Positions 2,438-53,330 of a stretch of DNA of 64,000 nt are shown here, piece after piece. The notes below the pieces were generated by a model, which was not told where the DNA came from, did no database searches, and saw only the letters and a program-made list of their open reading frames with translations. Source of the DNA: Zygnema cylindricum (Eukaryota > Streptophyta > Zygnematophyceae > Zygnematales > Zygnemataceae); assembly GCA_037447655.1 (NCBI GenBank), contig JBBHKE010001665.1, positions 62,001 to 126,000 on the forward strand. The letters run 5' to 3'. The translations under genes were made by a program, and so were the position numbers. How positions within the stretch are numbered: position 1 is the first letter of the stretch; every line of letters starts with the position of its first letter.

Positions 2438-3940
2438 ATGGCGGACAATACTATACAGAAGGCTACTTTTGCCGCCGGTTGCTTCTGGGGCGTAGAACTG
2501 GCGTATCAGCGGCTGCCAGGTGTCACTCAGGTCATAATCTATTATTCTTATTATAATCCTTTTCGTGGTTTTAGAAAATATTTTGCATGCTACACGATTC
2601 ATTTTTCAAAGAGAATGAGCTGTGAAATGCACTGCATACTCTGCTGCCAAAACCGCCGAAATGAATACTTTACGTTGCCGAACCAATTGCTATGTTGAAT
2701 TTCCGAACCAAAAATACTACGCTCATCCGAAATTCACATATTTTCGGCAAGAATAATATATAACTACATATAATATATAATGACATTTATTCGTAAGCTA
2801 TGGCTCCCAGAAACATAATTTTCTGCATTGACATTGTGAATTTGACCTCCCCCATCCTTTGCAGCTTCTGAGCCGGAGGTTTTCCTTTCCTTTTCCTGCA
2901 CTTTCTGTTTTGCAGACAGCTGTCGGGTACACGCAGGGCCACGTGGCGAATCCGACATATGAGGCTGTGTGTTCCGGGAAAACCGGGCATGCTGAGGCCG
3001 TACAGGTGGAGTACAATCCGGATGACGTCAGCTACTCTCACCTTCTGGAGCTTTTCTGGAAGCGCCACAATCCGACTCAGCTCAACCGCCAGGTAGACGC
3101 CAAGGATTCATTTATCTATTTATTTTATTATTATTTTTTATTTTTTTTCGGCTTATCTCTTGGTTGTAATGTAACAAGAAGGATTTTTTTTTTTTTTTTT
3201 GTATCAGCTTTCTGGAAGAAGGTGAATGGTCGAAAGGTTCAAGAATTATTAGAGAATAAAATTTATGAGTTGGACAAGAAACCATCTGTCATTTTGGAAG
3301 GACATACTGAGATTTCTGTATGGTGTATTTATGCAGAGTGAGTTGTTTTTATTTCAGGCATTAGTTTCTGCCTTACGACTTTTCTACTGGACTGTTCCCC
3401 TGCAAATCCTCTGCTTTTTCTAACATTTGCTTTCTTGTCCATGTACCAAAGTTTTCCGTTGTTCCTTGTCGTACTAATTTACTTATTTTCAGTGTCACAA
3501 TGTATTGTATGCCCTAGAAAAACCTCTCAGACATAAATTGCCACACTTAATCTTTCAGTTGTAACACCCAGATAGCATTATTGTTTGACCACTATTTTGA
3601 TCCATTTTTTATTTTTTTTGTGTTAAATCAATGCAGACAAGAATCAGTACCTGTTGACCTCTCCTTTTTTCCTTCTTATGTGATACAGGGAAATGACGTT
3701 GGATCTCAGTATCGCTCCGGCATATACTTTCATACTCCCGAGCAAGAAAGGATTGCTAAGGAATCATTGAAGCTCGAAGAAGCGAATCGTGGTCAGAAGA
3801 TTACGACAGAAATTTTACCTGCGGCCATATTCTACCGGGCAGAAGAATATCATCAGCAGTACCTTGAAAAGGGAAATAGGCGAAGTAAAGGACAATCAGC
3901 GGCTAAGAGCTGTAATGATCCCATTCGTTGCTATGGCTAA
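2438..3940 (+). CDS. MSRA: Peptide methionine sulfoxide reductase A, copy 2 (complete, 3 exons)
   Basis: Exons at 2438-2530, 2916-3092 and 3689-3940 join in phase 0 to give 173 residues, about the normal length for a cytosolic MsrA. The start ATG at 2438 gives a short N-terminus without an evident transit peptide. GCFWG with the catalytic Cys15 lies near the N-terminus. Exon 3 encodes the conserved [19 protein letters not shown] block, then the YHQQYLEKG motif and a C-terminal [10 protein letters not shown] with two cysteines expected to resolve the disulfide (about C165 and C171). Splice sites are canonical (CAG/GTCATA, CAG/GTAGAC, TTGCAG, ATACAG). Copy 1 is divergently oriented, about 1.4 kb away ATG to ATG, with a MITE in the shared upstream region. 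Intron 2 holds an odd open segment at 3207-3343. The gene appears functional. Confidence 0.93.
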
Positions 3941-32226: not shown

Positions 32227-32696
32227 CGGAGCTCGCAATCGGGTACCCGAATCCGTACCCGACCGTTATCCAACCACCCGCGTCGGATCCGGAACAGATT
32301 CGGGTACCAACAAATTTTGGGGGCCGGTCGGATTCGGGGGGGTGATTCAAAAAAAAAAAAAAAAAAATCGGTTACGGTCGGGTAAGCAAAAAACGAAAAA
32401 AATTGAAGGTTTTGTACTGTCCATACTATCTAACATTATTGTACTTTCTACTCTTGGTATCGTGGAAGGTATGAGGGAGATGTACCATTGATTTTGTACA
32501 TATTCGGGTACGGGCGAGTATGGGTAGTCGCGAGAAATCGAGTTTCGATTAACTTTATTTTCGTAAAACACATATCGGACAACGGTTAACAATTTAGGAG
32601 CGTGACATAACCCGGCCGGGTATCGGGTGTTCAGATTTTAAAAAACAAAAAGTTGTCGGTTTCGGGTATCTAAAATTTTAACTTTTGCGACCTCTG
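32227..32696. mobile_element. 470-bp hAT-type MITE
   Basis: Termini CGGAGCTCGCAA and CAGAGGTCGCAA are inverted. Flanks CCCTATTC (32219-32226) and CTCTATTC (32697-32704) match at 7 of 8 bases, consistent with an 8-bp hAT target duplication. The interior is rich in CGGGTACCCG-like motifs and has a poly-A run. Relatives are at 32971-33246, 51828-52022 and 52023-53330. Confidence 0.7.
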
Positions 32697-35393: not shown

Positions 35394-36027
35394 TTGCTTG
35401 AAATGCTTAAGAGTATTTACGATGCATTTAATGAGATAAGAACAATCGCTCAAGCAACAAATAAATTGATACTTTTTGCTTGTATCGATAAGACTCATCT
35501 TACCGAACTTATACGATTTTTGGAAAGGTTTCAAAAAGCGACACTAAAGTTGAAGAAGTTCAAAGAACCAACTTTACATTTGGTTATGTTTGAACTATCG
35601 TCTCTCCGTAGCCAGTGTAAGGAAAGAAAATTATCTTACAATGACGGTGAAAAACAATGCCCCACCGAATCACCAAACTTACAAAAATTGAAAGAACTTT
35701 TTATGAAATTTGCACAACCGAAGTGGGGCCTTCACGAGTATCATATTGTCGTGGCTCTTTTAGATCCCCGACAAAAACAAAAGGCTTGAAATAATTGGGG
35801 TATCAAAAACCGAAATTGAAAGCTCGAGGGTCAAACTTCGAGAACTCGCAAACGACCTCGGTGATGACGCTGATTTCGGTAATCCTCAACATATAACGTT
35901 GCAAAGTATGGACAATTTCCACAACTTTCTAGGTGAGAGCGATGAGGAATTCGAGGATGTTATTACCACCGACAAAAAAACGCTCGTTAATGATGAATTG
36001 AAATGTTACTTTTTTTTATAATTAACC
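35394..36027 (+). pseudogene. hAT transposase fragment (upstream part, interrupted by the Ty3/gypsy element)
   Basis: hAT transposases catalyse cut-and-paste transposition. The first frame reads RFLERFQKATLKLKKFKEPT and continues to a conserved LDPRQKQK, typical of the central/C-terminal region of plant Ac-like transposases. A frameshift follows, after which the coding sense continues (FGVSKTEIESSRVKLREL ... DELKCYF). No N-terminal BED finger or catalytic region was recognised upstream, so the copy is truncated. Coding sense resumes at 50738, on the far side of the 14.7-kb retroelement. Confidence 0.75.
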
Positions 36028-37315
36028 TGTCAAGCTCGTGTGCATTCTCTGCACAATTATACTACCAGGATTTCCGGGGCCTTGTTCCACCCTGTACGGA
36101 CCCCAGCGTACAGAGAAGGGGAGGACAACCAGTCAGATCAGATCCTTGTATTCTCACCTAGGAGCACAACGCAATTTAGTTCACCTCAAACGGAGGACGA
36201 ACAGCGGAGTTACTCTGTTGCAACGGTGGCGGCTCCATGACATGGCATATGTACTATGTAGCTCTAGTGGAGGGGTACATTGTGGAAAGCCACGTAACCT
36301 TTGGGGTTGTCTTGTAGATCCCAACAGACGGGCAGACCATGTATTACTTTGGGTCAGAGTCAGGCGGTTTCAAGTCAAATCAGGACCTTGTTTCCTATTA
36401 GTGTACCATACCTTTTGCCGCAAATCCAGTCGGAGCCGGTCGCCTAAATTTTTTCCCTAAGAGTAGTACATACTATTTTGTCTTATGTCAATACGATAAC
36501 AATTGCTAGCCGCTGATTGGCTTCTGGCATTGCTTTGACTTTGCACAATTGCTAGCTGGTGATTGGCTTCTGGCAATGCTTTGACTTTGCACAATTGCTA
36601 GCCGCTGATTAGCTTCTGGCATTGCTTTGACTTTGGCCCCTGCTGTAGGAAAAACTGTGATGTATAAGGCACTTGGGGCCGTGACTTTGGCCCCTGCTGT
36701 AGGATGTGATGTATAAGGCACTTGGGGCCGAAGGAGACAGGTTGTTTTTCAGTACTGTCTCCTGATAAAAACCTTAGAAATTCTACCAAACCTTCTTTGG
36801 GAGAACCTTTATTGTTATGTGATTGTGACCCTATTGCCATCTTGGTTTGCATTTGTCCTTTGTGGAAATCATAGTTCGGTTGGGTAGTTGGCACTATCTT
36901 TCCAGTTTGGGCGATTTGGGGCTTGTGGCTGTTTGATTCGAGAGGGGTCTTTTTGGTTCCGATTTGCGGAAACCGAAGAGTTAAGGAGTAAATTACCTGT
37001 TTCGGTGTCTTCAAGAGAGATTTCGTCTCCTCTTTTTGTCAGCGTTCCTTTTGGGGGTATGTTAAGCTCGCTTGCTATTATTCTTAATCCTTTATTTATC
37101 TCTATTTTTCTAGGGCAAGGTGATATTGTTAATTCTGAAACAGCTTATTATTCTTTTATTTTTCCGTTATTCTGCGTTGGAGTGTCTTTGTTCTCTCTTT
37201 GGTAGTCCTTTTTGGGCTTCGGTTGCATTTCAGCCGGGGTCAAATGCCAAAATCTTTTGGACTAGAACAATGGGTTTTGAGGGAATATTTGTTAGACTTC
37301 CAGCGAACCAGCACA
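36028..37315 (+). repeat. 5' LTR (segment a only)
   Basis: Matches 49292-50489. It contains three tandem ~48-bp units (CAATTGCTAGCCGCTGATTG...) at about 36500-36645 and two ~54-bp units (GACTTTGGCCCCTGCTGTAG...) at about 36629-36730, where the 3' copy has one of each. It lacks the 241-bp segment b that precedes segment a at the 3' end. Confidence 0.85.
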
Positions 37316-37440
37316 GTACTGAAAATCCACCTGTCTCCTTCAAATTAGAGGGGATAGGAGCTTCAAATTTTGGGAACCTCAATTTTTGAGAGGAGTTAGG
37401 GTTCTCTTTTCCGACAATTTTTTCTTTTAGCCGTCACTCG

Positions 37441-40400
37441 ATGGGAGGGGGAGAAGATCAGGAAAAAGGGGCTCCGGGATTCGGATTTGAGGAGCAGGGT
37501 AGTTAGGAGACGTTTGCACCGGAGGAAGAAGAGACGTTTGCACCGGAGGAAGAGTCCCTGGTGCCCGAGGAATCAGTCCCTTTTACATTTTCTTTAAACA
37601 TAGAGCACTGGAGGAAGAAGAGACGTTTGCACGGAGGAAGAGTCCCAGGTGCCCGAGGAATCAGTCCCTTTTACATCTCCTTTAAGCATAGAGCAGTTTC
37701 TTAAACGAATGATGCCTCCGGCTGCTCCAGCTGAGACTCCTCCAAAACAGCTCGTGAGGCTACCCACTCCTCCACCTCCGCTTGTCTTTTCTCCCGAGAA
37801 CTTTCCTACCTTATCCGAGGCTACCAAGGCTCGGGCCGTGGAGAAGGTTGAGAAAAAGCCGATATCTCCCAAATCAGGTAGGAAGGGTTTGGCTCATAAT
37901 GAAGCCTGTCCTTGGTCACCCTCCCGAGTTCGGACGCTATACCAGGTCTAAGGCTCCGACAGCTGAAATGTACATAGATCTTGAGATTTTGGCAGACCCT
38001 ACCCGGCCAGGTCGGAACGAAATCTTAGCCCTTCACAATCTCCATGAGTTGAAGGTAAAAAAGGAGTTGGTACAGCGGGTAGCCAGAACCGACAAGGCCA
38101 GGATCGTACACCAAGTGGGAGGTGTCGTTGAGATACTAATCAGTTCGTCCAAGAGCGGCTCTTCGACCTCAGTCCGGAAGCAACAGGGGATGCCCTCAAC
38201 TTCACGCCAGCAGCCGACCTAATCTGTGGACATTACAACCAGCAGACCGTCGAGGGGCAGGGCAACATCTCGGGCCGGGCCGGAGAAGGGAGAAGCTAGC
38301 GGGGGTTACCAGAGCCTAAGAGAGTGCATCGGTTTGATCATCGAGACAACAAGGGCAGGTTTGCTCCCCGACCTAAAGAGGAGTCGTTCTTCCCTTCCGC
38401 CTTAATTTCTCCAAGCTCCCTGTCTCCACCAGCACCGGTTGTTCGACCTTCCGAAGGGTTGTGGCGTTCGAGACCCAGAGACCCCGAAGTACCAGGTTTA
38501 GGGATTGCGGATCTCTCTGGTGTAATGAGCAGCACCTAGAAATTGGTCGACATTTTGCGATCGCAGAGTGAGGCTACGGCAGGGGTCAGACCTTTCACCA
38601 TAGACTTGGAGGCTCTTGAAAAAGAAAGGAAGGAGACACTTGAACAGAAACTGCTTTTCATTTGAGAGGCTAGACGCAGGTCAGGAGGGATTCTTACTGG
38701 ACAGGTAGCTCCTCCTCAGAGGACAGGTCCCTTTGCGGGAGGATAACCTCGGGGTCAAGAAAATCCACCTGCGATGCAGGCTCCAAGGAATTCACCGGGA
38801 CCTAGACCGGAATCTCCTCTTCAGCGGGAAGGGGAGGAAACCACAGGGCCTATCGGAGAGGGGTTGGGTGCAAATTTACCGGGTAACGTTGCAGCCGCTA
38901 GCGCTGAGCATCCTACATTTGTCTCAGTGGGTGGATCTTCCACTGTGGAGGCATTGGTGTAACTACAACCGAATCGGAGACTCCACATTTCCCTCGGACT
39001 GTCCACTCCACCATCACCACCTGTCGCCTCCTCTCCTCCACCATCACCACCTTTAGCCACCTCTCCTTCGCCATCCATTTTTCCTGCTGTCGTAGTTCGT
39101 GGGTCATCGGGCCCACCTGTCTTATCGTACAAACATGACGTCCTCGCCTACTCACCACCTCACCGATTTTCTCCTTCATCCAGCTGAAGAACTCCACCTC
39201 CCGAGACATATAGGAGGCAAACCAGGAGACATACGTCTTTTCCTACCGCGCCCCAGCATCTCCATCTCCGTCTCCGCCGCCGTCAATTCCACAAATGCCT
39301 TTGAACAGACCTCGGCTCCACATCCCATCACTGGAGAGAGTTCTAAGGGAGGAACAATACACTCCTAGATCTAGAGGAGCCCGAAATCCAACCCCTCTTT
39401 TAACAGCAAGACCATCCTCAGTGGGGGCGGGGGATCACAGAAGTTACACCCGCCCGTCCTAGCGGAGGAGAAGGCGGTTCGGATCTAGAAGGTGTAGATC
39501 TAGGAGCAACTTTGTCGGCTCAATTTGTCAGCCCCACCAGACCGGTCTCGCCTCTATTCACTAATCTCGCAGAGGAAGAGAAAGAGATGGGGGACGTTCC
39601 GATCTTTACAGAGGATAGTTCTGGAATAGCTTTTTCTGATTTTGAATTGTTGTGGAAATCTTTCACCCAATCTGAGATCAATAAGTACAGGGGAGGGGTA
39701 ATTCCGGATGACTTCGAAACTACCCTTTTCCCGATGATGGTCAACTATCTCTCTAGGGGAGCCCTAGCCGACTATAAGGAGCGACAACCACTCTTGATGG
39801 CGCTTAGCATCAAGATTTCTGACCCGGTTCCGGATGCGGCAGTTTTGCAAGCAGAGGCAGATTTGGCTGCAGCTGCGGCCGCCGTCACTCCTACCTACAC
39901 CAATGACATGAAATTACAGGAACAGGGGCAAGCTTATATGAACCATCTGCAAGCAATACTAGCCGCCCAAGCTGCCACCAGAATGGTTGCCAACCCCACA
40001 CCCTGCACTACTCTTTTAAACATCTGAAGACTCCTCTACACCGAGAGGAATGAATCTGCTATCAAGGAGTTTACACAATTCTGGTGTCTGAAAAGTGAGA
40101 CACCACAAACTCTTTTTAACAGACTGTCCAGCCTCTGTCAAAAGACGAAACTTTCAAACATCGATCTTCCAGCGATGGCTGTTGTTTTGAAAGCTTTATT
40201 CCTCACCAAGCCTCCTATGTGAGGGGAGTGTCTTCTAAGTACTTAGTTTATTTTGTGGAAGCTTGGTTCAATATGTACCAGATTTAGTGTGACACTAAAC
40301 AGTGAGAGAGTACAATTTGTATCACACTAATGGGACACGCGTCAGCCAATTGAAATGAAACACTCCGCAAGACTCGGTTCTACGACTCAGTTTCACCAGA

Positions 40401-41845
40401 AGACCGAGGTGTCACACAAAGTTTCATCTTGGATAAAACTCCTCAAAGATGGACGGAGGGGATTTGCTGCCGACGGACGCTGGTCAGCCGAGACCACGTT
40501 TATTATTATTCGACGTGTTTTTGTACAGTATAGTGTGATATAACATATCCCTGTTTTGTACATAGACGTGTTTTGTTTGATTAAGGACTTAGTTTACGTT
40601 CATTCTGTATGACATTCCTTGAAATAATCAGGTATCCTTCTTAGATCTGGTAGATATTATTGATGCATGGCTGATATGCCTTCTTACCTTGATTAGGATA
40701 GTGAGTGGCTGCTAGTCTTCAGAAAGATAGATATTTTTGGTATAAGAGTAGGACTTAACCATTTTAGAAGTTAGGAACTTGTTGTATCAAATTATGCTTT
40801 AGCATTTTAATATCTTTGACTGAGAGTTTTTCTCATATCTGTTTGCAGATTTCTATGTAAATTTGCACTTGTGTTCCTCTTTGCATTATTTGCATTATGG
40901 CAGATTCGCATGCCATTTGGTTGCCTAAATGGTCTTTGGTTGTGTTCCAAAGTTGTATGTTTTTCTGATCATCTATGAGAGTTTCTTGCTTGTTTTAATT
41001 ATGTGATGACTACTCTTGCCTCGTCTTCATCTTCAATGGGTGTAGCATCCACAGAGCAACAATGGCCACCAAATATTTCATCGCAGTCCGAAATTCTTTC
41101 GGTCCCAAGGGACAAACTGCACACGATAATTTGATCGCAAGCCATGCCATCGAAGATATCAATCCATCTGCTAAGGAAATTTTGCTTGTCGCTATGAAAC
41201 TAGTGAAGCCAGGGAAAAGGCAGTCACCGCAAAGCCAAGGGAAATTTTGCAGGATTTGCCGGAGAATTGTCTTCGTACAACGATGAGACAGCAGAACTTC
41301 AAGCTTTGCGGAAGCTTAAGGGGAAACATGTGATTGATAGCGGATCAAAACCATCCATTGGAGCCGACGACCGAGTCTTCCTGTACAATTGCCTGAACTG
41401 TCAGCAAATCGGTCATGGGTGGAAGCGCTGCCCACGGAAGCTGAACCCCAAACTTGCCCTAAAGCAAAAGGAATGGGAAAAAGAGAGAGCTAAAAGAACA
41501 AAGAAACAGATTGAACGGAAACAAAGAGGAGGATCGGAAGACAAAACGTCGGTAATCAAGGACAACTACTACCCGACTCCCCAGTCAAAAACTGCCAAAA
41601 TGTCACAAGCTCAGTTGCGACACGTTAAACTCCCAAAAATTGATGATGCGCAGATCTCAAATGAGTTACGGAGCAAATACACCACCGAGGGCTCTAAGTG
41701 TCAGGCTTGCGGTTTCATGGGACACAAGGAGGGGCAATGTTTCAAGAAAAATGGAGTTCCGAAAGAGATGATGCAATATGCTCTGTTTACAGGCGGAGGG
41801 GACACTATCGTGAATCCTCTTCCCTTCCAACTCTTTTCCCCATGA
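37441..41845 (+). pseudogene. gag-like region with two CCHC zinc knuckles
   Basis: Gag packages the element RNA. The reading begins near the ATG at 37441 (MGGGEDQEKG) and runs through acidic and Pro/Ser-rich stretches. A capsid-like block lies at 39512-40218 (DFELLWKSFTQSEINKYRGG). After an interruption at about 40221-41045 it continues to a nucleocapsid part with CLNCQQIGHGWKRC (about 41392) and CQACGFMGHKEGQC (about 41700), both C-x2-C-x4-H-x4-C knuckles. A ~93-bp internal tandem duplication occurs at about 37513-37700. Several frameshifts and stops; non-functional. Confidence 0.75.
40221..41045 (+). mobile_element. Secondary insertion in gag, LTR-like
   Basis: Interrupts gag. It opens with GAGGGGAG followed by TGTCTTCTAAG, like a copia polypurine tract and LTR start, although a frame-shifted gag reading across the first bases is possible. 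Its 3' half matches, in inverse orientation, the insertion at 46703-47780 (shared blocks such as AGTTCCTA...TAAGTCCTA and GGAACACA...CAGAT). Boundaries approximate. Confidence 0.5.
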
Positions 41846-42841
41846 GGACGTCGAACCATAGAAGAACCAGAACTCAAGCCAACAAGTCAAGCCAGACTCA
41901 CACTGGAAAAGATCATCCAACAACAAAGCCAGCAACTGGCCGCGATGAGTGCAGAATTGGAGGCCCTGCGTTTAAGATCTCCCTCTTGGGTTTCGGCTCT
42001 GACGGTCGATCAAAAACTCCAACGGAGAAAACAGGAGTTCCTACAGAAGTTGGCGGAGCTTAAACAAGAATCCACGGCGGGTGGAGATGATGACGATGTT
42101 ATGGGGTGGATATGGAACCACCTAAGGCTCACCATGCTCGTACCTTTTTGTCAAGAGCTTGGAATATGGGTGTGGGAGACAATCGCAAAGAACTTCGCAA
42201 TACCACCTCGGAACAACGGAAAGGACGGCGGAAATTGGCTCAAGGGGACCATAACAAAAAAGTCACGGGCCCACGGTCATTCATTTCCCGGGCAGTGATT
42301 TTGAACAACGACATCGGTCTCGGAATCAAATCCACCAATCTCCCTCCCCCTGCCGTGAAGAAATTACCTCCCGGATTTGAAAATTACAAAACAGGAAATT
42401 ACAAAACGGATAAACTAAGGGAGATGGAAAAACAGGCAAAGGAGGAGGAGAAACGTAAAAATCAAGATTGGTTTAAACGGTATATGGCGGAACGCCCGGA
42501 GGATAAAACACCAAGAACGCTTCCCGAACCGAAATCAGACGATGAAATTGAGGAAGTAGTGGGGGGGGAGCAAGAGAAACTGGAGGAACCGGGTTCCCCC
42601 ATTTTTTTGCCAAAAACTCAACCTCCTTCTTCCAAGCTAGTAGTTATGCTAGTAAGGCACCTCATGCCCTACGCCCTCACACATGTGAAAACATTAGCCT
42701 TGCCCATAACCTGCCTAAAGAAACCATCATTCAGGCACTAGGAGAGGAAATTCAGTCGAGAAAGATGCAAAGAGGCTTGGCAAACCAGCCCAGGTCATTC
42801 ATTTTGTCCGCTGACCCCAAGACCCCTATGGTGGATATGGA

Positions 42842-43260
42842 TTATAAGACGTTATCTGTGGCGCTTATCCTCAACCGGACATGAAATTTCAGAATTAACG
42901 GGTACGGAAGATATGAAGATGTAGTGGTCGACACCGGAGCATTACCCAATTTGATAACTACTTCGGCTTTGCAAAAAATGCCCAAGGAACACCGACGGAA
43001 AATTTTCCCCAGCAACGTATGCCTGAGAACAGCTAGTTGTGGAAACCACCCGGTCCACAGAATTATCAAGGCTATGTTGATTGAATTTTCCCATGACGCG
43101 GGTCAAAGAGTCCAAATCCGGCTTCCCTTCTTTGTGGTAGAAAGTAAGCAGTTTGAAATTCTTCTGGGGATGGCCACCTAGACCAGGTTGAATATGGATT
43201 TAAGTGTGTGGAAGGAGCAATTTACAGTCCGGGACCCTGAAGATCCAAAAGGGGCCCAAG
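42842..43260 (+). pseudogene. Retropepsin-type aspartic protease domain
   Basis: The catalytic signature VVDTGALPNLIT is at about 42924-42960 (DTGA at 42930-42941). The hydrophobic segment with FEILLGMAT at about 43155 matches the retropepsin C-terminal motif (ILG-type). It processes the Gag-Pol polyprotein. It lies upstream of the methyltransferase domain; stops follow. Confidence 0.75.
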
Positions 43261-43580
43261 TGGTCGTACCCCTAGATTTATAGAATCCAGGAAAAACCAA
43301 TGTTCCCGTGTCCGGATGTTATCCTATTTATGCCACCCACTCACCAACAGAACTGCTCGCCAGCGCCCCAGACATCTCCGAGGATATATAACAATTCCGT
43401 ATTTCCAAGGGGTGGGAAAAGGGATACTAGGAAAGATTATTACAGGTATCAACACTTCGGTGGGAAGTGGATCAGTCTTTCTCAACTGCTTTTACCAAGG
43501 ATAAGACTTCCAAACCTTAGTCTGAATCTTCGGAGGTTCAACCCGAAAGACAAAAATTCAATCAACAGGTGGTGTCATTA

Positions 43581-44600
43581 TCAATTTCGGATTCCGGACT
43601 CAGGATACTATCACTTTTCTCTGGAATCAGCTCGGACCTAAAAGTTGTCTTGAAGGCATGATATAAGGTGGAGTCTTATGTAGCCGTGGAGATCTCACCC
43701 GACGCCCGAGTTGTTAGTGAGCACCAACTACATCAGCTTCACCAAATGTATCCCCACCAACTTCCCGTGTCTGCAATCTGTAAAGCTCACCGAAGTTTGC
43801 CCCAAAATGTTGACAACATCCTAGCACCACATTTGGCCATGCTGAAAAGAGTAGATCTGGTAATAGCAGGATGGCCGTGTTTGGGATACTCTTTTACAGG
43901 GAAAGGTGAGGGGCATCAAGACAGCCGAAGCCGAACTTTCTTTCAAATGATCAAATTAATTTCTTGGTTGCAGCAACTTCAAGATACGCTAGTGGGGTAC
44001 GTTTTGGAGAATGTCCACCCGGGAGACGATAAAAGAAAACAGGTCGCCAATAGCTGGAAGCAAGTTACGCAGGTTTTAAGGGCTCCACTTGTTTCGGATG
44101 TAGCACAAATGTGATCTAGAGCTCACTGAGTACGGGCTTACTGGACAAATCTAATCCCATTTTTCGTCCTCCACCAACTCTTACAAAACCACAAAACAGA
44201 TCCCCAGATCACTCTCCAACTGATTCTCGGACCAGGGCGAATGGCCACTCCAGTGACAAAGGTTGATCATCTCCCATTCTTCCCCTACAACAAACAAGAG
44301 GCCCCACGGCAACCACTGCCGACTCTGGTTTCCTTCCCCAACAGCCATGCATATCGAAAGGGAGTGACAAAAATGATATTTGACAACAAAAGTGGAACTT
44401 GGACAACCCCAACGGTCGAGGAACAAGAACAAGCAATGGGATTCCAACCTGCAACAACGGTTGCACCAAGTATTTCAGACCTTCAGAGGTGTAGCCTACT
44501 CGGACATAGCATGATCTGAATGCGGTCACATGGGTGGTAAAACATTCTCTTGCCTTTTCTAGTCTGCAATCTCCTCAGTTAAGGGCTAGTTTCCTACAAG
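43581..44600 (+). pseudogene. DNMT3-like cytosine-C5 DNA methyltransferase domain within pol
   Basis: One reading frame covers nearly the whole catalytic domain. Motif I RILSLFSGISSDL (about 43602-43640) binds S-adenosylmethionine; VAVEISPDA follows. Motif IV AGWPCLGYS has the catalytic Cys codon at 43878-43880, with Leu where most enzymes have Gln or Asn. DSRSRTFFQMIKLI follows; motif VI LENV lies at 44004-44015; a motif VIII-like SRAH.VRAYWTNL at about 44115-44147; and a C-terminal EEQEQAMGF ... RCSLLGHSM (motifs IX/X) before about 44520. In-frame TGA codons at 43659, 44112 and 44127 and a frameshift near 44517 inactivate it. The Arg-rich motif VIII and LLGHS ending resemble DNMT3-type enzymes. 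It sits between protease and reverse transcriptase in the same orientation, so it was expressed as part of pol in the active ancestor. Confidence 0.88.
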
Positions 44601-45099
44601 CTCGAAAGTTGTTAGCAATGCAGGCCACTTTGCAGCTTGAGGGGGGGAGAGAGGAAAAGAGAAAAACTCACAAATTCCATCCAATGGGGGGGAGCAGAGG
44701 CTCGAAAAGTGACAACTTAGCGAAAATTGTCATCAGTAATGTCCTAGCCGAAACGGTAGAGGCAGATCCACCAGTGGGGTTTCATTTCGACATTAACCTC
44801 TAGGGTAGACCGCCGGAAGCTTGGGCTTCTGTTGAGCCGGGGAAAATGGATTGGACCCTGAACAGAAGGCAAGGATTTCCGAAATATTGCCCAAAACAAG
44901 CAGGTATTCTCATGGTCAGCAATAGATGTCGGCATCTACAAAAGAACCCCTTTCCGAATCGATTTAATCGACGAGACGGCTACTGTTTTGGAGAAGTAGT
45001 GTCCTCTCAGCTTCAAGGTGAAGGAATTCACCAGGGCTAAACTCCAGACTTTGGTGAAGCCGGATTGGTTCAGGAAAGCACCGGACTGCATGGGTTCGC

Positions 45100-46290
45100 T
45101 TCACGACAGTTCTCCCTCCGAAGAAGTACTCATCCGGAAAAACTGTAGATTTCCGGATGTGTGGAGACTATCGCATGCTAAACAAGACCACCATCTCTGG
45201 TCGGTATCCGATGCCAACTTCGGAAGAGATATTTGACTCTCTTGCTGCTGCCACTATCTACTCTACTCTGGACATGAATAACGATTTCAACCAGATCGTC
45301 ATTGAACCGAAGCACCGGGAGCGAACAACATTTTGGGCAGGTTCCCAGCGGTATGAATGGATTTACATGCCATTCGGGCTGAAGAATGAACCGTCCAAAT
45401 TCCAACGGTCAATGGACGAAGCGCTCCGAGGAATCGATTGTGCCCGGTGCTATATTGATGATGTGATCATATTCTGAAAGACTTTTGAGGAACACCTGAA
45501 GCATATCCAGATCGTTTTTCGGGCACTCCGAGCAGCGGGCTTGAAATGTCACCCAAGCAAAGGCATTTTTGGGGTGCAGAAAAATCATTTACCACAGAGA
45601 TGAGGTGACTCTCGGGACTTTGGGTCCCCACATGGTCAAGGTGGCAGCCCTTGACGCTCTTCTCCCACCGCAAGAAATCTCGGCCTTTCGCACCTTCCTG
45701 GGCTTGGCCAACTAATATCGGTGGTTTATCCCTGAGTTCAGTAGTCACGCCCAGTCCCTCAATCTGTTATTGCGCAAGGACCAAGAATGACAATGGGTTG
45801 AAGAACAACAGATTGCCTTCTTGTTCTTGAATGATGCTCTGAAACAGCACCCCGTGCTTCGGATGCTTGATCTCTATAAGCCTTTCCTCATTTATAGTGA
45901 TTGGAGCAGGTTTGGATTGGGAGCGATTTTGGCTCAAGTCGATGATGCCGGAGCTGAATATGTGGTGGCTTACCCTAGCCGGACCAATAACCGAGCGGAA
46001 GGAAATTATAGCAGTTACCACGGAGAGCTCCTCTCAACTGTTTGGGCAATCCAACATTTCCGACCTTATTTGTACGGGGTCCATTTCTCCCTTATTACCG
46101 ACCACCAACCCTTGAAATGGATCATGGAAAATAGTAAGTTGACTGGCAAACTTGCCAGATGGGTTCTTATCTTGCAGGAATACGACTTCAGTATTATCCA
46201 CCGGGCAAGGGAAATCCACGTGAATGTCGACGGACTGAGCCGAAATCTCAATCCCTCCACTCTAGATTCCACCGGAGCACGTCACGATGA
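45100..46290 (+). pseudogene. Reverse transcriptase and RNase H
   Basis: RT reading: DYRMLNKTTISGRYPMP, TLDMNNDFNQI, YMPFGLKNEPSKFQ and the catalytic YIDDV (45451-45465), followed by a stop and shifted frames through FEEHLKHIQIVFRAL. RNase H follows at 45880-46250: IYSDWSRFGLGAILAQ, SYHGELLSTVWAIQHFRPYL and TDHQPLKWI, the Ty3-type order. The D of YSDWS corresponds to the first catalytic Asp. Confidence 0.9.
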
Positions 46291-46559
46291 GGATCCGGAG
46301 ATCAGTCTGGGACTTATTCGAGCCTCTTCCGCTTTAATCTGGCTTCCCCGATCTGGGGGGGAACTGTCCACTTTCACGGTGGACCTGGAGGGGCATGCAC
46401 CGATAGGAGCCGGACGAAAAGATATCTGGAATGATCCTGATTCTCTACAATCCATCCAGCAGGGATCTCCTCTTTCCCACTTGGTTGGAGTTCAATTGTC
46501 CCGTGTGCAGACGCGGAAGGGGGCGTATGACTGGGACCGAGGTATTCTCCTCCGGAAAT

Positions 46560-48560
46560 GGGCTGACGGAACGAGGAAAGTGGTTCCTCCCCCCGCAGAT
46601 CGAGAATTGTTGGTGGCACGGGTTGTGTTGTCCATAGCCATTTCTAGCCATGGATTCACCCTCGGAAACACCACAGACTACCCCAAATACAGCCTACTTT
46701 GGATACACACAGAATTCAACAGAATTAACAAAACATGCTGAAACTACATTAAACGATATAATCTAGGCTATATAATAACCTCACAAAGTTTCGGACAAAA
46801 ATAATAAACATAGAGATCACATCATCTATTCAAAGTTGCAGAAAAACAGTCTGCCTGAAATTTGATAAAATAGACAAACTTCACAATGAATTAAAACACA
46901 GACCAGGAACACAATAGGCCTTCAAATCTGTGAAAATATTACGAGTATGGATAGGAACACACATGCAGAATTTCAGACAATTCTGCCAACAGATCTAAGA
47001 GTAACCGTCAGATAAAATTACCAAAAATAACCATAAACAGTTTTGGTCCAAAAAGTTCCTATGTCCTGAAATGACTAAGTCCTACAATATATACACTCAG
47101 GCTTACTCGTAAATGTACGGAGGCATACCAGCCGTACGTAATCTACCATCTACTTAAATTAATGTGAGTATACCCGAATAATTCAAGGTATGTCAGAAAA
47201 TGTAATTCTACACTAATAATTAATGCACAAAAAGACAAAACAATGTTAAATCAAAATATTTACACCGACGCTTCCATAAAATCCGCGTACTGAGTATCAA
47301 CTTGATTATTCACTTGTGGACGAAACCACGTAGTGAGTCGACATCACGTACGTACGGTCCACTTGATACCACGTCATCAAAATTGCGATCCCTTGAAAAT
47401 ATCGCCGTCCGCCCTCCAAATGTACCATGACCCACTTGCCGAAAATAAACCGTACCTTCAAAATCTTTTCCGTACTGAACGTGCGTCCTTTTCCATCCAT
47501 GCCACTTGTCCCATTATGTTCGGTACGTGCGACGTACCATTTCAACCTCGTCGATTATCTAACGTCGGATCGCTTCGCGATCCGCCGTCCATTTCCTATT
47601 TACGCAAACCATACGTTGCAATATAATTCATACGTTTTCTCCCCCAATCCGCAAATACATTCGAACCTCCACATTAAACTTAGTGGGTACTCATGCATTA
47701 CAAATCACATTGAGTACGCACACAACCTTACGTACGAATAAAATGTCATGCATGCACGAAACTAACATTTCAAAACAACAGGTTGCGGACCCAAGTCAAC
47801 CGAATTGTGCAAACTTGCTCTTCTTCTGATCGGGTTAAAGCAACTTTCGACAAAAAAGGTGGAACCGAGCTTCATTCTCTTCCCATCCGGAGGATGTACT
47901 ATCGATGGTCTTTGCATCTGTTGGGGCCTCTTTCGACCAATAGACGGGGAAATCGCTTCGTGTTGGTCATGATCGAACATTTTTATAAATGGATAGAGTT
48001 GGTGGCTTTGCCCCGGAAGGAGTCCAAAGATAATGCAGATGCCTTCCTTCAGAGAGTGTTGTCACAATTTGGAGCGCCAGAGGTTTTGACATATCAAAGA
48101 TATGAATTTGTCGGAGAATTCTAAACCCTTTTGGAGAAATGTCTCATCGACCATCGACTTACCAGTCGCGACCAGCCCCAAGCCGACGGTTTGGTCGAAA
48201 GGTGCGTACAGACACTGAAGCGATCACTACGGAAAGAGGCAGTTGAAGGATATTTAGGGGAGTGGGACAGGCGGGTGTCGTGGATCGCCATGGGATACAA
48301 GTTCAGCCGGCAAGCCTATCTCCATTCCTATAACCCTTGCTTCCTTTTATTTGGACGACATCCCATCCTTCTCGGCGCTGCTTCGGCCCAAGCAGTGGTC
48401 CTCGCGGAGATGGATAATGAAGGGACAGTCGAGAAAATGATCGCTGACACAGCCAAAGTGCTCCACCAAGAGATGCCTCTCGCCATGGGGAATTTACAAA
48501 CAGCGCAGCATCGGGATTATTTATGGTATTCTCAACGCAGGAGCGGGAACTATGTACCTT
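46560..48560 (+). pseudogene. Integrase, interrupted by an insertion
   Basis: The N-terminal zinc-binding half is visible as ELLVARVVLSIAISSHGF near 46600; the second half (VNRIVQTC) resumes at 47780 after an insertion. The catalytic core includes WSLHLLGPLSTNRRGNRFVL (DLLGP expected, H replaces D), VMIEHFYKWIE, SQFGAPEVLT and QADGLVERCVQTLKRSLR, which holds the conserved Glu. Integrase inserts the cDNA into the host genome. Frames shift at 48120. Confidence 0.85.
46703..47780 (-). mobile_element. Secondary insertion in integrase, related to the gag insertion, opposite orientation
   Basis: Splits the integrase zinc-finger region. The plus-strand block CAAAAAGTTCCTATGTCC...AAGTCCTAC is the inverse of sequence near 40745-40795, and GGAACACACATGCAG...CAACAGATC is the inverse of sequence near 40850-40890. 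It probably is a solo LTR or retroposon of the same family; boundaries approximate. Confidence 0.5.
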
Positions 48561-48788
48561 GATAATGTCGATTCATGCCTAGAGACTTAGTGTATCGGAT
48601 GCAGCAAAAAAAGGACACGTTAGATATTTTTGCCTGGCGGGTGATTTTAAAAGTGGTGGAGGTTTCCAATAAAGGGGTCCTTACCTTGGAAGGAAAGGAT
48701 GGCCAGAGAATCAAGGAGAATCTGATCAATGTAGCCCCTTGCCACCTTCGAGGTTTTGAAGACGAACCCACTTTCCATCTAGCTTACT

Positions 48789-48990
48789 TTGCCGACCCTC
48801 CTTCCTGCTCTTCGGACTGCACGTCGTCTTCCTCACCGGGTCTTGTCTTGGTCTGTGACAAATGCAGCCAATGCTGGCATGCAACATGTATCCCCACCTC
48901 TTAGGAACCACAAACCCAACCCCAAGGTACTTGGTTTTGTGGGAACTGGAACCACACACCCAACCCCAAGGTACTTGGTTTTGTGGGAAC
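48789..48990 (+). pseudogene. PHD-like zinc finger at the C-terminus of integrase/pol
   Basis: Reads CSSDC ... LVCDKCSQCWHATC ... GTWFCGNC, giving the C4-H-C3 spacing core of a PHD finger (CDKC, WH.xC, then W-F-C-x2-C). PHD fingers read histone H3 tails. It occupies the place where chromoviruses carry a chromodomain. A TAG lies in the middle at 48902, and a 44-bp tandem duplication (48904-48991) repeats the last part. Confidence 0.65.
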
Positions 48991-49033
48991 TGTGAATTGG
49001 GCAGGTGAAATTATATCTTAGTCAGGGTGGACT

Positions 49034-49047
49034 AAGAGGGGGGGAAA
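49034..49047 (+). promoter_or_regulatory. Polypurine tract (plus-strand primer site)
   Basis: AAGAGGGGGGGAAA directly precedes TTGGGATATC, the start of LTR segment b, as expected for the plus-strand primer of an LTR retrotransposon. Confidence 0.75.
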
Positions 49048-49048
49048 T

Positions 49049-50733
49049 TGGGATATCAACCCTAGAGGGGGGTTTAGGGTATCTTTTTCACCTCCCCACG
49101 CTTTCATTCCCTATGCGGGCTCCATTGCCTCTTTTGTTTCGCATACATTTCCCCGGGGGATTTGGTTGTAGAAATGAGCATGGTCAATATCATCGGAAGC
49201 ACGCGCATCGCGGGGGCATTTGCAGGACTCTCACATCAAATAAGGTGGGTTGTGGGCCTCACCTTATTTTTTCTCAGGCACGCTCGACATCTGTCAAGCT
49301 CGTGTGCATTCTCTGCACATTTATACTACCAGGATTTCCAAGGCCTTATTCCACCCTGTACGGACCCCAGCGTACGGAGAAAGGGGGGACAACCAGCCAG
49401 ATCAGATCCTTGTATTCTCACCTAGGAGCACAATGCAATTTAGTTCACCTCAAACAGAGGTCGAACGGCGGAGTTAGTCTGTTGCAACGGTGGCGGCTCC
49501 ATGACATGGCATATGTACTATGTAGCTCTAGCGGAGGGGTACATTGTGGAAAGCCACGTAACCTTTGGGGTTTTCTTGTAGATCCTTCTGTTAGGCGTCA
49601 GCAGGATTTTAGTTGAGTCCCAACAGATGGGCAAAGCATGTATTACTTTGGGTCAAATTCAGGCGGTTTCACGTCGATTCAGGACTTTGTTGCCTATTAG
49701 TGTACCGTAAGGGGACCTTTTGCCGCAAATCCAGCCAGAGCCGGTCGCCTAACTTTTTGCCCTAAGTGTAGTACATACTCTTTTGTCTTATATCATTACG
49801 ATAACAATTGCTAGCCGCTGATTGGCTTCTGGCATTGCTTTGACTTTGGCCCTTGTAGTAGGAAAAACTGTGATGTATAAGGCACTTGGGGCCAAAGGAG
49901 ACAAAGGAGACAGGTTGCTTTTCAATACTGTCTCCTGATAAAAACCTTAGAAATTCCAACAAACCTTCTTTTGGAGAACCTTTTTTGTTATGTGATTGTG
50001 ATCCTATAACCATCTTGGTTTGCATTTGTCCTCTGTGGAAATCGTAGTTCGGTTGGGTAGTTGGCACTATCTTTCCAGTTTGGGCGATTTGGGACTTGTG
50101 GCTGTTTGATACCGAGAGGGGTCTTGCCGGTTCCGAGTTGCAAAAACCGAGGAGTTAAGGAATAAATTACTTGTTTCAGTGTCTTGAAGAGAGATTTCGT
50201 CTCCTCTTGTTATCAACGTTCCTTTTAGGGGTATGTTAAGCTCGCTTGCTATTATTCTTCATCCTATCTTTATCTCTATTTTTCTAGGGCAAGGTGATAT
50301 TGTTAATTCTGACACAGCTTATTATTATTTTATTTTTCTGTTATTCTGCGTGGGAGTGTCTTTGTTCTCTCTTTGGTAGTCCTTTTTGGGCTTCGGTTGC
50401 ATTTCAGCCGAGGTCAACTTCCAAAATCTTTTGGACCAGAACAGTGGGTTTTGAGGGAATATTTGTTAGACTTCCAACGGACCAACACAAATTGGGATAT
50501 TAGCCCTAGAGGGGGGTTTAGCATATCTTTTTCACCTCCCCACGCTTTCATTCCCTATGCGGGCTCCATTGCCTCTTTTGTTTTGCATGCATTTCCTCGG
50601 GGGATTTGGTGGCAGAAATGGGCATGGTCACTATCATGGGAAGCACACGTATCGGGGGGGCATTTGCAGGACTCCCACATAATCTAAGGTGGCCTGTGGG
50701 CCTCACTTTATATTTTCCCAAGCACGCTCGACA
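49049..50733 (+). repeat. 3' LTR region: segments b, a, b
   Basis: Segment b (49049-49289, starts TGGGATATCAACCC) plus TC plus segment a (49292-50489) forms an LTR starting next to the polypurine tract. A second 241-bp b (50493-50733) follows directly, joined as CAACACA-AAT-TGGGATAT. The two b copies have equal length and differ by scattered substitutions. The missing 5' b is thus found at the far right end. Confidence 0.8.
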
Positions 50734-50737
50734 AACC

Positions 50738-51643: not shown

Positions 51644-51819
51644 TACGCGGCTCATTGTTATTAGTGTTTTATAGCTAAAAATCACAAAATAGAGTTTACA
51701 ACGTTATTTAAAGACGTGGACTACAACCTGCCACGTCTCCTTGCATTAAATAGTATGATTAATTATAATTTTTCATCAACACCAATAAATGTTTAATGTT
51801 AATAACAATGAGCGTTGTA
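51644..51819. mobile_element. Diverged TA-flanked MITE
   Basis: TACGCGGCTCATTGTTATTA at the left and TTAATAACAATGAGCGTTGTA-like sequence at the right. The central GACGTGGACTACAACCTGCC block matches the 203-bp family. Confidence 0.65.
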
Positions 51820-51827
51820 ATTTTGTA

Positions 51828-52022
51828 CTTATTCGGATACGGGCGGATAAGGGTGGTCGCGGGAAATCGAGTTTCGGTTAACTTCTATTTCTGTAAACGC
51901 GTATCGGGTAACGGGTAACAATTTAGGAGCGTGACATAAGTCGGTCAGGTGTCGGGTACTCAGATTTTGAAAAAAAAAAAATGTCGATTTCGGTTATCTA
52001 AAATTTTGACTTTTGCGACCTC
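51828..52022. mobile_element. Partial hAT-type MITE
   Basis: Corresponds to the right part of the 470-bp element at 32227, ending TTTTGCGACCTCT. It abuts the next copy head to tail in inverse orientation. Confidence 0.6.
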
Positions 52023-53330
52023 TCACCCGAAAGCGACAATTTTTTTTTTCAAAATCTGAACACTCGATACCCGACCGGGTTATGTCACTCTCCTAAATTG
52101 TTACCCGTTATCCGATATGCGTTTAATAAAATAAAAGTTAACCGAAACTCGATTTCTCGCGACTACCCGTACCCGAATAAGTACAAAATTAATGGTCCAT
52201 CTCCCTTAGGGTGCGTCCCCATGTAATCGGTACTTTGATAAAGTATTTTGGACTGTAGTGAAGATTCACCGTACTACTTTGAAGAGCGTCCCAATGTGCA
52301 AAAATGAAATCGGAACTTTGAAATGTGACGGTTGTAGACGTAGGTACAATGTGACGATTGACGACGACTACGAAACTTCTGATGATTGGTGACGCCAACA
52401 AAAACAACGATAATTGTAGACGTCTGGATTTTTTGTGAAATTGTAGGTGTTTAGGGATTGGTGACATTGTGACGTCATACTCACTTGTGACAACGCCGAC
52501 GTCACTTATTCCATAACTTTCCACCATGGTTTCCCGATTTCGTTTTTTCTCTTTTTCTCACTTGACTGTGCGAAAATGAAAGCAAAACTTTGAAATGTGA
52601 TTGTTGTAGACGTCGGTACACCATGAAAAAAAATCTAAAAAATGTTAGAAAAAAATATTTTTCAAAGATCTTTCATTTTCAACCTATATTGTCCTGTCTC
52701 TGTCTAAATAGTGTGAGATAAAAGCGACCCATGAATGAAAGTGGAGGTCCGAGACCCCTGCAATATTTTTTCGTACATGCGCGTGACGTGCATGGAGAAT
52801 AGCGAGTACTCTCCATCGTCCAAAAAGTTTCTCACTCGTGTGGCGCCTATGTGGATCATTTTCCATTCGCTGTTTTGGCGATACTTTAACTAAAAACACC
52901 CCCTCGAGGTGATTTTGGATGAAGTTTTTTTATGGGCTAGATTCTCTTGCCCGAGGGTCGAAAAGAGGAAAACGCCAAAATGCGCTCACATGACGACAAA
53001 CATGCAGTACACTCAAAGTATAGAATTGACGTAGGGCAAAACGACAAAGAAAAGTAGATACTTTAATACATGGGGACGACCCCTTATACCTTCCTCGATA
53101 CTAAAAGTACAAAGTACAATAATGTTGGATAGTATGGACAGTACAAAACCTTCATTTTTTTTCGTTTTTTGGTTACCCGACAGTACCCGATTTTATTTTA
53201 TTTTGTGAATCACCCTGCCCTAATTCGGCCGGTCCCCAAAATTTGCCACCCGAATCCGTTCCGGATCCGACGCGGGCGGTCGGGTAACGATCGGGTACGG
53301 ATTCGGGTACCCGATTGCGACCTCTACTGT
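52023..53330. mobile_element. hAT-type MITE split by a TTA-flanked MITE
   Basis: An inverse copy of the 470-bp family (52023-52205 and 53087-53330), ending GATTGCGACCTCT. The intact relative shows CTCCCTCATACC at the insertion point, where this copy has CTCCC-TTA ... TTA-TACC. Confidence 0.7.
52209..53083. mobile_element. 875-bp PIF/Harbinger-like MITE nested in a hAT-type MITE
   Basis: TTA at 52206-52208 and 53084-53086; inverted termini GGGTGCGTCCCCATGTA and GGGGTCGTCCCCATGTA. The intact hAT-type relative gives the approximate empty site. Confidence 0.8.

Follow-up and report, generated by a model that had tools for sequence, protein, structure and literature searches.

The closest described system is KnitGypsy-Dnmt3 of the charophyte Klebsormidium nitens, in which a DNMT3-class cytosine methyltransferase domain lies within a Gypsy retrotransposon (de Mendoza 2018, PMC5890265). 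In that paper, the Gypsy elements of the K. nitens lineage are taken to have acquired the domain independently, and the legend of Fig. 4 describes their repeats as structured like those of a DIRS element, with the layout A-coding-B-A-B being that given for the DIRS element of Symbiodinium. Self-methylation was proposed there as a role for the enzyme, and the SymbioDIRS enzymes produced de novo CG methylation (PMC5890265). A Ty3/Gypsy element of 14.7 kb, located at 36028-50733 in a window of 64,000 nucleotides from contig JBBHKE010001665.1 of Zygnema cylindricum (the whole stretch of DNA analysed here), also encloses a DNA methyltransferase (DNMT) in its pol region. Taken as a whole, with a probability of about 0.86, this is a dead copy of a multi-copy Gypsy element with a DNMT in pol and, past a DDE integrase, a PHD finger, which would have relied on translational readthrough, the methylation of its own cDNA, and the steering of integration by the PHD finger.

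The translated frame, which starts near 43500, carries the methyltransferase motifs RILSLFSGIS, AGWPCLGYS, LENV, RAYWTNL, and RCSLLGHSM, in the order given by the first-pass annotation of the sequence, and the codon of the catalytic cysteine is the TGT at 43878, also as annotated. The PF00145 search that the annotation had recommended, with the stops of the domain masked as X, returned 30.8 bits (E 2.7e-7; cut-off 22), and a 148-residue open piece of the frame scored 30.2 bits by itself. The DNMT3-like character that had been proposed is borne out by a phmmer search of the PDB, in which 25 of the 25 distinct sequences matched by the window domain were DNMT3A, 3B, or 3C. DNMT3 is, similarly, the closest class of C5 methyltransferase with a solved structure to the element DNMT, and the search of solved structures returned no DNMT1 or chromomethylase (CMT) chain at E 0.001. 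A bacterial origin of the domain was rejected following the comparison with the solved structures. In the DNMT3 family, motif IV is PCN, which is found in neither of the two element families of the host genome, denominated Q and S. Given that this motif is PCQ in family Q and contains Glu-Cys in family S, the element enzyme is, at the sequence level, of the DNMT3 class, and no orthologue of the animal DNMT3.

The window copy is dead, as shown by three in-frame TGA codons within the DNMT domain (43659, 44112, and 44127), a frameshift before the last helix, and another before the reverse transcriptase (RT), which agrees with the decay that had been surmised. A further TGA follows the residues SMI at 44517, while the last helix carries on in a third frame, to about 44560. 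The YIDD motif of the RT is in a different frame from the DNMT, and that of the protease precedes the DNMT and shares its frame.

The host genome (352.8 Mb in 2689 contigs) contains many siblings of this element. A search with PF00145 scored at least 123 places among 782 candidates, all of them over the cut-off, and a search with the domain of a sibling scored at least 116 among 1851 candidates. The place of the window itself was recovered at C1251:105392-106429, with 64% identity to a sibling (E 1.9e-142). In the 68 PF00145 places examined (L001-L008 and 60 more), which are loci of 3 to 4.5 kb that may miss a partner gene, element genes adjoin the DNMT in 67, with the protease upstream in 63, the RT downstream in 58, and both partners in 54. 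The position of the DNMT within pol, between protease and RT, is thus common to the siblings, as the earlier annotation had anticipated, and a chance string of motifs was rejected as the source of the window frame on the basis of these 67 loci. The sole locus with no element neighbours, L007, is a host exon of the chromomethylase type, with 104.5 bits to 4fsx (presumably maize ZMET2) vs no more than 51.5 for the group ranked second. An exon of this type points to a host in the plant line. A search of the assembly for rbcL found none.

The 67 element DNMTs are divided into 44 copies of family Q (AGWPCQG), with the window copy making 45, and 23 copies of family S (AGSECQG). The PCL of the window copy had been considered unusual, and it is indeed peculiar to this copy, but it is no trait of the family, given that PCQ is found in 43 of the 44 other Q copies (43 of 45 with the window counted). 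In family S, Glu replaces the Pro of the catalytic PC motif in all 23 copies (L005 and L016, for example), with Gln following the Cys in 22. The same replacement is observed in the Closterium relatives P0036 and P0040. The ratio of nonsynonymous to synonymous substitutions (dN/dS) is well under 1 between sibling copies, and the catalytic residues are kept, a pattern of substitution that shows the element DNMT to be under purifying selection. A search from the protease side scored at least 139 places among 1061 candidates, with a DNMT match listed just downstream in 67, when paired with all 116 sibling-domain places and 76 of the 123 PF00145 places. The Pfam scan of the sibling L009 recovered RVT_1 (103 bits), RT_RNaseH (113), H2C2 (52), and rve (48.6), that is, the pol domains of a Gypsy with a DDE integrase after RNase H, a set of which the integrase pieces in the window score under the cut-off. 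The sibling protease falls slightly under the cut-off of PF13650 (22.3 bits vs 24.3, E 2e-4).

The protease and the DNMT are separated by a conserved stop. In 44 Q copies with a readable junction, including the window, the junction codon is TAG in 39, TAA in four (the window among them), and TTT in one, and it is followed directly by CAATTC in 39 of the 44. The stop is kept between subfamilies in which the protease and DNMT are only about 45 to 59% identical; the CAA after it is never changed to CAG, and a single copy has TTT in place of TTC, while the two codons that come next differ between the subfamilies in their third bases. In the genome tables, the gap between protease and DNMT is exactly three bases in 24 of 25 end-to-end pairs. 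Past the stop, the frame of L006 and L009 is open through the DNMT, RT, RNase H, integrase, and PHD finger. Family S has no such stop, and its readable copies run from the protease into the DNMT in a single frame, one of these open frames having 2395 residues. No shared RNA structure was found at the stop in folds of 63 nt from four copies, compared by eye. The sequence UAG-CARYYA is described as essential to leaky termination in tobacco mosaic virus (passages of PMC2754532, PMC4132726, and PMC2194720), and the element is like this type (type I readthrough) in its UAG and in the CAA and TTY codons after it, and unlike it in that its hexamer ends in C, not A. The conserved stop suggests that the DNMT and the genes downstream of it are likely to be translated by readthrough.

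The C-terminus of L009, after the integrase, has a C4HC3-like pattern with 18.7 bits to PF00628 (cut-off 24), and the PHD finger of the relative P0020 reaches 42.9 bits. A profile of ten element PHD fingers matches, among others, those of KMT2D, CHD4, DPF3, KDM5A, ATXR5, BAZ2, and UHRF1. Several of these PHD fingers bind unmodified H3K4. Chromoviruses are Gypsy elements with a chromodomain, which is thought to steer their integration. The element is like these in having a histone-reader-type domain after the integrase, and differs from them in that this domain is a PHD finger rather than a chromodomain, in addition to the presence of the DNMT. The Pfam scan of L009 3099-4379 listed the PHD finger and no chromodomain. 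Three Gypsy polyproteins in which no DNMT was found (P0144, P0154, and P0165) have a PHD finger between RNase H and the integrase, and do not group with the DNMT-bearing rows in the RT tree. For Zygnema cf. cylindricum SAG 698-1a, the sections consulted of PMC9915684 report a PHD family enlarged 9-fold or more, and repeats making up 73.3% of the genome. If this is the host, transposon PHD fingers could, at a guess, explain the enlarged family.

Relatives were collected as 167 proteins, from two DNMT protein searches and one RT-RNase H search, the latter contributing the best 120 of 3496 matches, from the 7974 candidates sharing most words. The second of the protein searches, with a short DNMT domain, returned seven matches, none near-identical and hence none from the host, and a scan of IMG/VR found no relatives. 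In the domain scan of the 167 proteins plus L009, an RT occurs together with a DNMT of over 60 bits in 31 rows, with the DNMT before the RT in 23 and after RNase H in eight; in one subclade it lies between RNase H and the integrase. Relatives with the DNMT in frame include P0137 of Klebsormidium nitens, P0002, P0101, P0116, and others of Marchantia polymorpha, and P0141, P0111, and others of Closterium sp.; in Tetraselmis (P0146 and P0150, named from the tag Tetstr) the DNMT is weaker, at 133 to 135 bits, and in P0120 of Haematococcus lacustris it follows RNase H. The first-pass annotation had confined such relatives to the charophytes, within the green lineages, a limit that the elements of Marchantia, Tetraselmis, and Haematococcus overstep. 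The metagenome protein P0041, in which a Gag bearing two CCHC knuckles is followed by a DNMT-like domain (446-748) and then a protease-like DSGSS, looks Copia-like in order and carries a separate methyltransferase, only 24% alike.

All trees are unrooted, and their clades presuppose a root among the other Gypsies. The RT tree was built from 123 rows with RT and RNase H, minus 12 by a length rule and 17 of a DNMT-less outgroup, plus six pieces from the host, which gives 100 rows; P0137 was the only DNMT-bearing row among the 12. In a quick tree of these rows, 77, including every DNMT-bearing row, lie beyond one branch with a support of 98 in the Shimodaira-Hasegawa-like approximate likelihood ratio test (SH-aLRT), and in 44 of these the frame itself contains no DNMT; as the rows are proteins, the domain may either lie in a separate upstream frame or be absent. 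A careful tree, restricted to 47 of the 100 rows, namely the 33 with a DNMT and 14 of the 23 in the outgroup, supported the DNMT-bearing rows at 100/98, a clade that joins the elements of the host, Closterium, Marchantia, Tetraselmis, and Haematococcus, and the eight rows with the DNMT after RNase H at 100/99. In a quick tree of 50 rows, Klebsormidium P0137 falls inside, in a group of 36 rows set apart by a branch with SH-aLRT 96. The 15 after-RNase-H rows of a quick DNMT tree (68 rows) all form a clade with six unplaced rows (SH-aLRT 100), with four of the 15 labels resting only on a DNMT that directly precedes the integrase. Rows of both DNMT positions end in integrase and PHD finger. One capture and one relocation would explain the two positions with the fewest events, and the capture looks old because a single RT clade unites the elements of a liverwort (Marchantia) with those of Closterium, Tetraselmis, and Haematococcus.

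KnitGypsy-Dnmt3 is the closest published relative, in line with the kinship to the charophyte case that had been proposed, and shares the DNMT3-class domain in a Gypsy pol, the A-coding-B-A-B repeats, and purifying selection (PMC5890265). We infer P0137 to be among the published copies. It is like the window element in having the DNMT before the RT and in its RT clade, and unlike it in occupying another branch of the DNMT and RT trees; no PHD finger was found in the domain scan of P0137, which is a partial protein. The SymbioDIRS-Dnmt3 of Symbiodinium also has a DNMT3-class domain in the pol frame and split repeats, and differs, as described in PMC5890265, in having a tyrosine recombinase, the Zygnema element being characterised instead by its DDE integrase and by a putative duplication of 4 bases. 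The Pfam scan of the pol frame of L009 returned no tyrosine recombinase. The main text of PMC5890265 has no match to PHD, Marchantia, chlorophyte, or liverwort, and its sole mention of a stop codon is a figure legend on the Symbiodinium elements. In the accessible portions of the open-access literature, no report of such elements was found for Marchantia, Closterium, Tetraselmis, or Haematococcus, with PMC6338049, as far as its text was available, naming green algae in general. The conserved stop between protease and DNMT, the PHD finger after the integrase, the wide shared RT clade, and the second DNMT position appear, from sequence comparison, to be new in relation to the published case.

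The comparison of 30-56 kb of the window with itself by blastn revealed the order A, coding region, B, A, B (Table 1). The insertion unit is most likely this whole stretch, because its outer ends are TGTC...GACA and AACC is common to both flanks. At the join of B1 and A2, the right end is set against the left end, with two bases between them, and the same join is found on the 3' side of L009; it was not found in the remaining loci read, though most of these end short of the element ends. In L009, approximately 3.7 kb of other sequence (L009:4634-8349) lies between 331-base direct repeats (98%) that contain the end of the PHD finger and repeat B. The Kimura two-parameter (K2P) divergence is 0.079 between the A copies of the window element and 0.110 between its B copies. 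The observed/expected CpG ratio is 0.70 within the element vs 0.98 in the rest of the window, which would be in keeping with methylation and decay.

Table 1. Features of the methyltransferase-bearing Gypsy element in the window.
Feature	Coordinates	Strand	Evidence or remark
Left target-site duplication AACC (putative)	36024..36027		Identical 4 bases at 50734-50737
Terminal repeat A, left copy, TGTC start	36028..37315	+	blastn block 36027-37315 vs 49291-50489, about 87% in two aligned blocks
Aspartic protease (DTGA), decayed	42669..43388	+	tblastn 64% to sibling protease open reading frame
Conserved in-frame stop and context, TAA CAA TTC in window	43389..43397	+	TAG CAA TTC in most siblings
DNMT3-like cytosine methyltransferase domain	43581..44516	+	PF00145 and PDB DNMT3A/B/C; 3 internal TGA
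Reverse transcriptase piece with YIDD	45106..45582	+	tblastn 84% to sibling RT
RNase H (RT_RNaseH)	45821..46741	+	PF17917 E 3.9e-33
Integrase core (rve), two broken pieces	47714..48562	+	rve E 1e-3, rve_3 E 0.01, both under cut-off
C-terminal PHD finger remnant	48818..48892	+	PF00628 E 0.0075, under cut-off
Terminal repeat B1	49045..49289	+	90% identity to B2
Terminal repeat A2, TGTC start two bases past B1	49292..50488	+	blastn self-comparison
Terminal repeat B2, end GCTCGACA	50489..50733	+	blastn self-comparison
Right target-site duplication AACC (putative)	50734..50737		Matches left flank; seen in one copy, chance possible

Elsewhere in the window, a long imperfect palindrome at 51818-52191, 78% identical to its own reverse strand, resembles a miniature inverted-repeat transposable element (MITE), with kin at 32491-32695 and 32474-32667. 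The open frame at 2859-3341 (+) matches peptide methionine sulfoxide reductase (PF01625, 90 bits), and is probably part of a host gene. An Rfam scan of the window gave no match at the gathering score.

In the mechanism proposed for the intact element, translation would chiefly yield Gag-protease, with a smaller share of the ribosomes passing the UAG to make the part formed by the DNMT, RT, RNase H, integrase, and PHD finger. Readthrough would set the dose of the enzyme, with the methyltransferase being packaged at the dose of the polymerase. The likely role of the DNMT, we infer, is the methylation of the new cDNA of the element itself, either inside the particle or where the element inserts. 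The PHD finger would bind the H3 tail and steer the integrase, in the manner supposed for the chromodomains of chromoviruses, and the join of B1 and A2 may act as the template for the element ends.

A number of observations weigh against this account. The whole terminal structure is found in one copy, and partially in one sibling with an insert (L009), where the insert separates pol from the join, which may thus belong to another copy. The PHD finger of the window family scores under the Pfam cut-off. No listed DNMT neighbours 72 of the 139 protease places, a count from incomplete DNMT lists, and some copies may lack the domain; one of these places, C10:59305, is 93% alike to the query. The element hexamer fits CARYYA at five of six positions, and in a mammalian test, as far as described in the passages cited above, all six positions are said to matter, while UAA, the window's own stop, is much less effective in readthrough. 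In PMC5890265, no methylation was detected in yeast with the KnitGypsy DNMT, a result from which its authors drew no firm conclusion.

The stop might be bypassed by re-initiation, or the downstream frame might come from a separate mRNA, and an ATG is present 19 codons past the stop in 25 of the 44 Q copies. This ATG is missing in the other 19, including the divergent subfamily of L003, the downstream frame adjoins the stop directly, and CAA TTC is conserved even at synonymous sites, unlike the two codons after it, in which the third bases vary, which leaves this alternative to readthrough unlikely, though worth bearing in mind. For the role of the enzyme, the DNMT may keep the host from recognising the element as foreign DNA, or serve the host by damping transposition, rather than mark cDNA for integration. 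Both roles are among the options discussed by de Mendoza 2018, and the present data do not separate them from the marking of cDNA. This alternative, while still on the unlikely side, is one to be reckoned with.

Repeated independent captures by Gypsies of different green lineages, with a DNMT3 as the common donor, would account for the two positions of the DNMT within pol and for the 44 rows, of the 77 that group with DNMT bearers in the RT tree, whose own frame has none, and the trees, which include no cellular green-algal DNMT3, leave room for a common cellular donor. Against this, the DNMT-bearing RTs lie on one side of a branch supported at 100/98 when the 44 DNMT-less rows are left out and at 98 with them, the after-RNase-H elements form a single clade in the RT tree and, with the six unplaced rows, in the DNMT tree, and the shared ending in integrase and PHD finger unites the two types; multiple captures thus seem decidedly improbable. 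The chance insertion of a host DNMT3 gene or retrocopy into one Gypsy copy might have been suggested by the decayed state of the window copy, which is single within the window. This has a negligible probability, being refuted by the siblings with the DNMT at the same position across the genome, with the domain also being present within the elements of Klebsormidium, Marchantia, and Closterium.

The broadest interpretation, which is speculative and rather doubtful, is that a single Gypsy lineage has been present in green algae and early land plants since before the chlorophyte-streptophyte split, with one capture of a DNMT3, which was joined to a histone-reading integrase. Its one polyprotein would write methylation on the cDNA and read the chromatin at insertion, with the dose of the writer set by a leaky stop and DDE integration proceeding from split direct repeats, by a cycle undescribed for Gypsy. 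Transfer between hosts, rather than vertical descent, may also account for the spread of this lineage. Given that the liverwort Marchantia carries such elements, the question of why a transposon keeps the type of enzyme that is used to silence it could be tested in an amenable land plant as well as in yeast.
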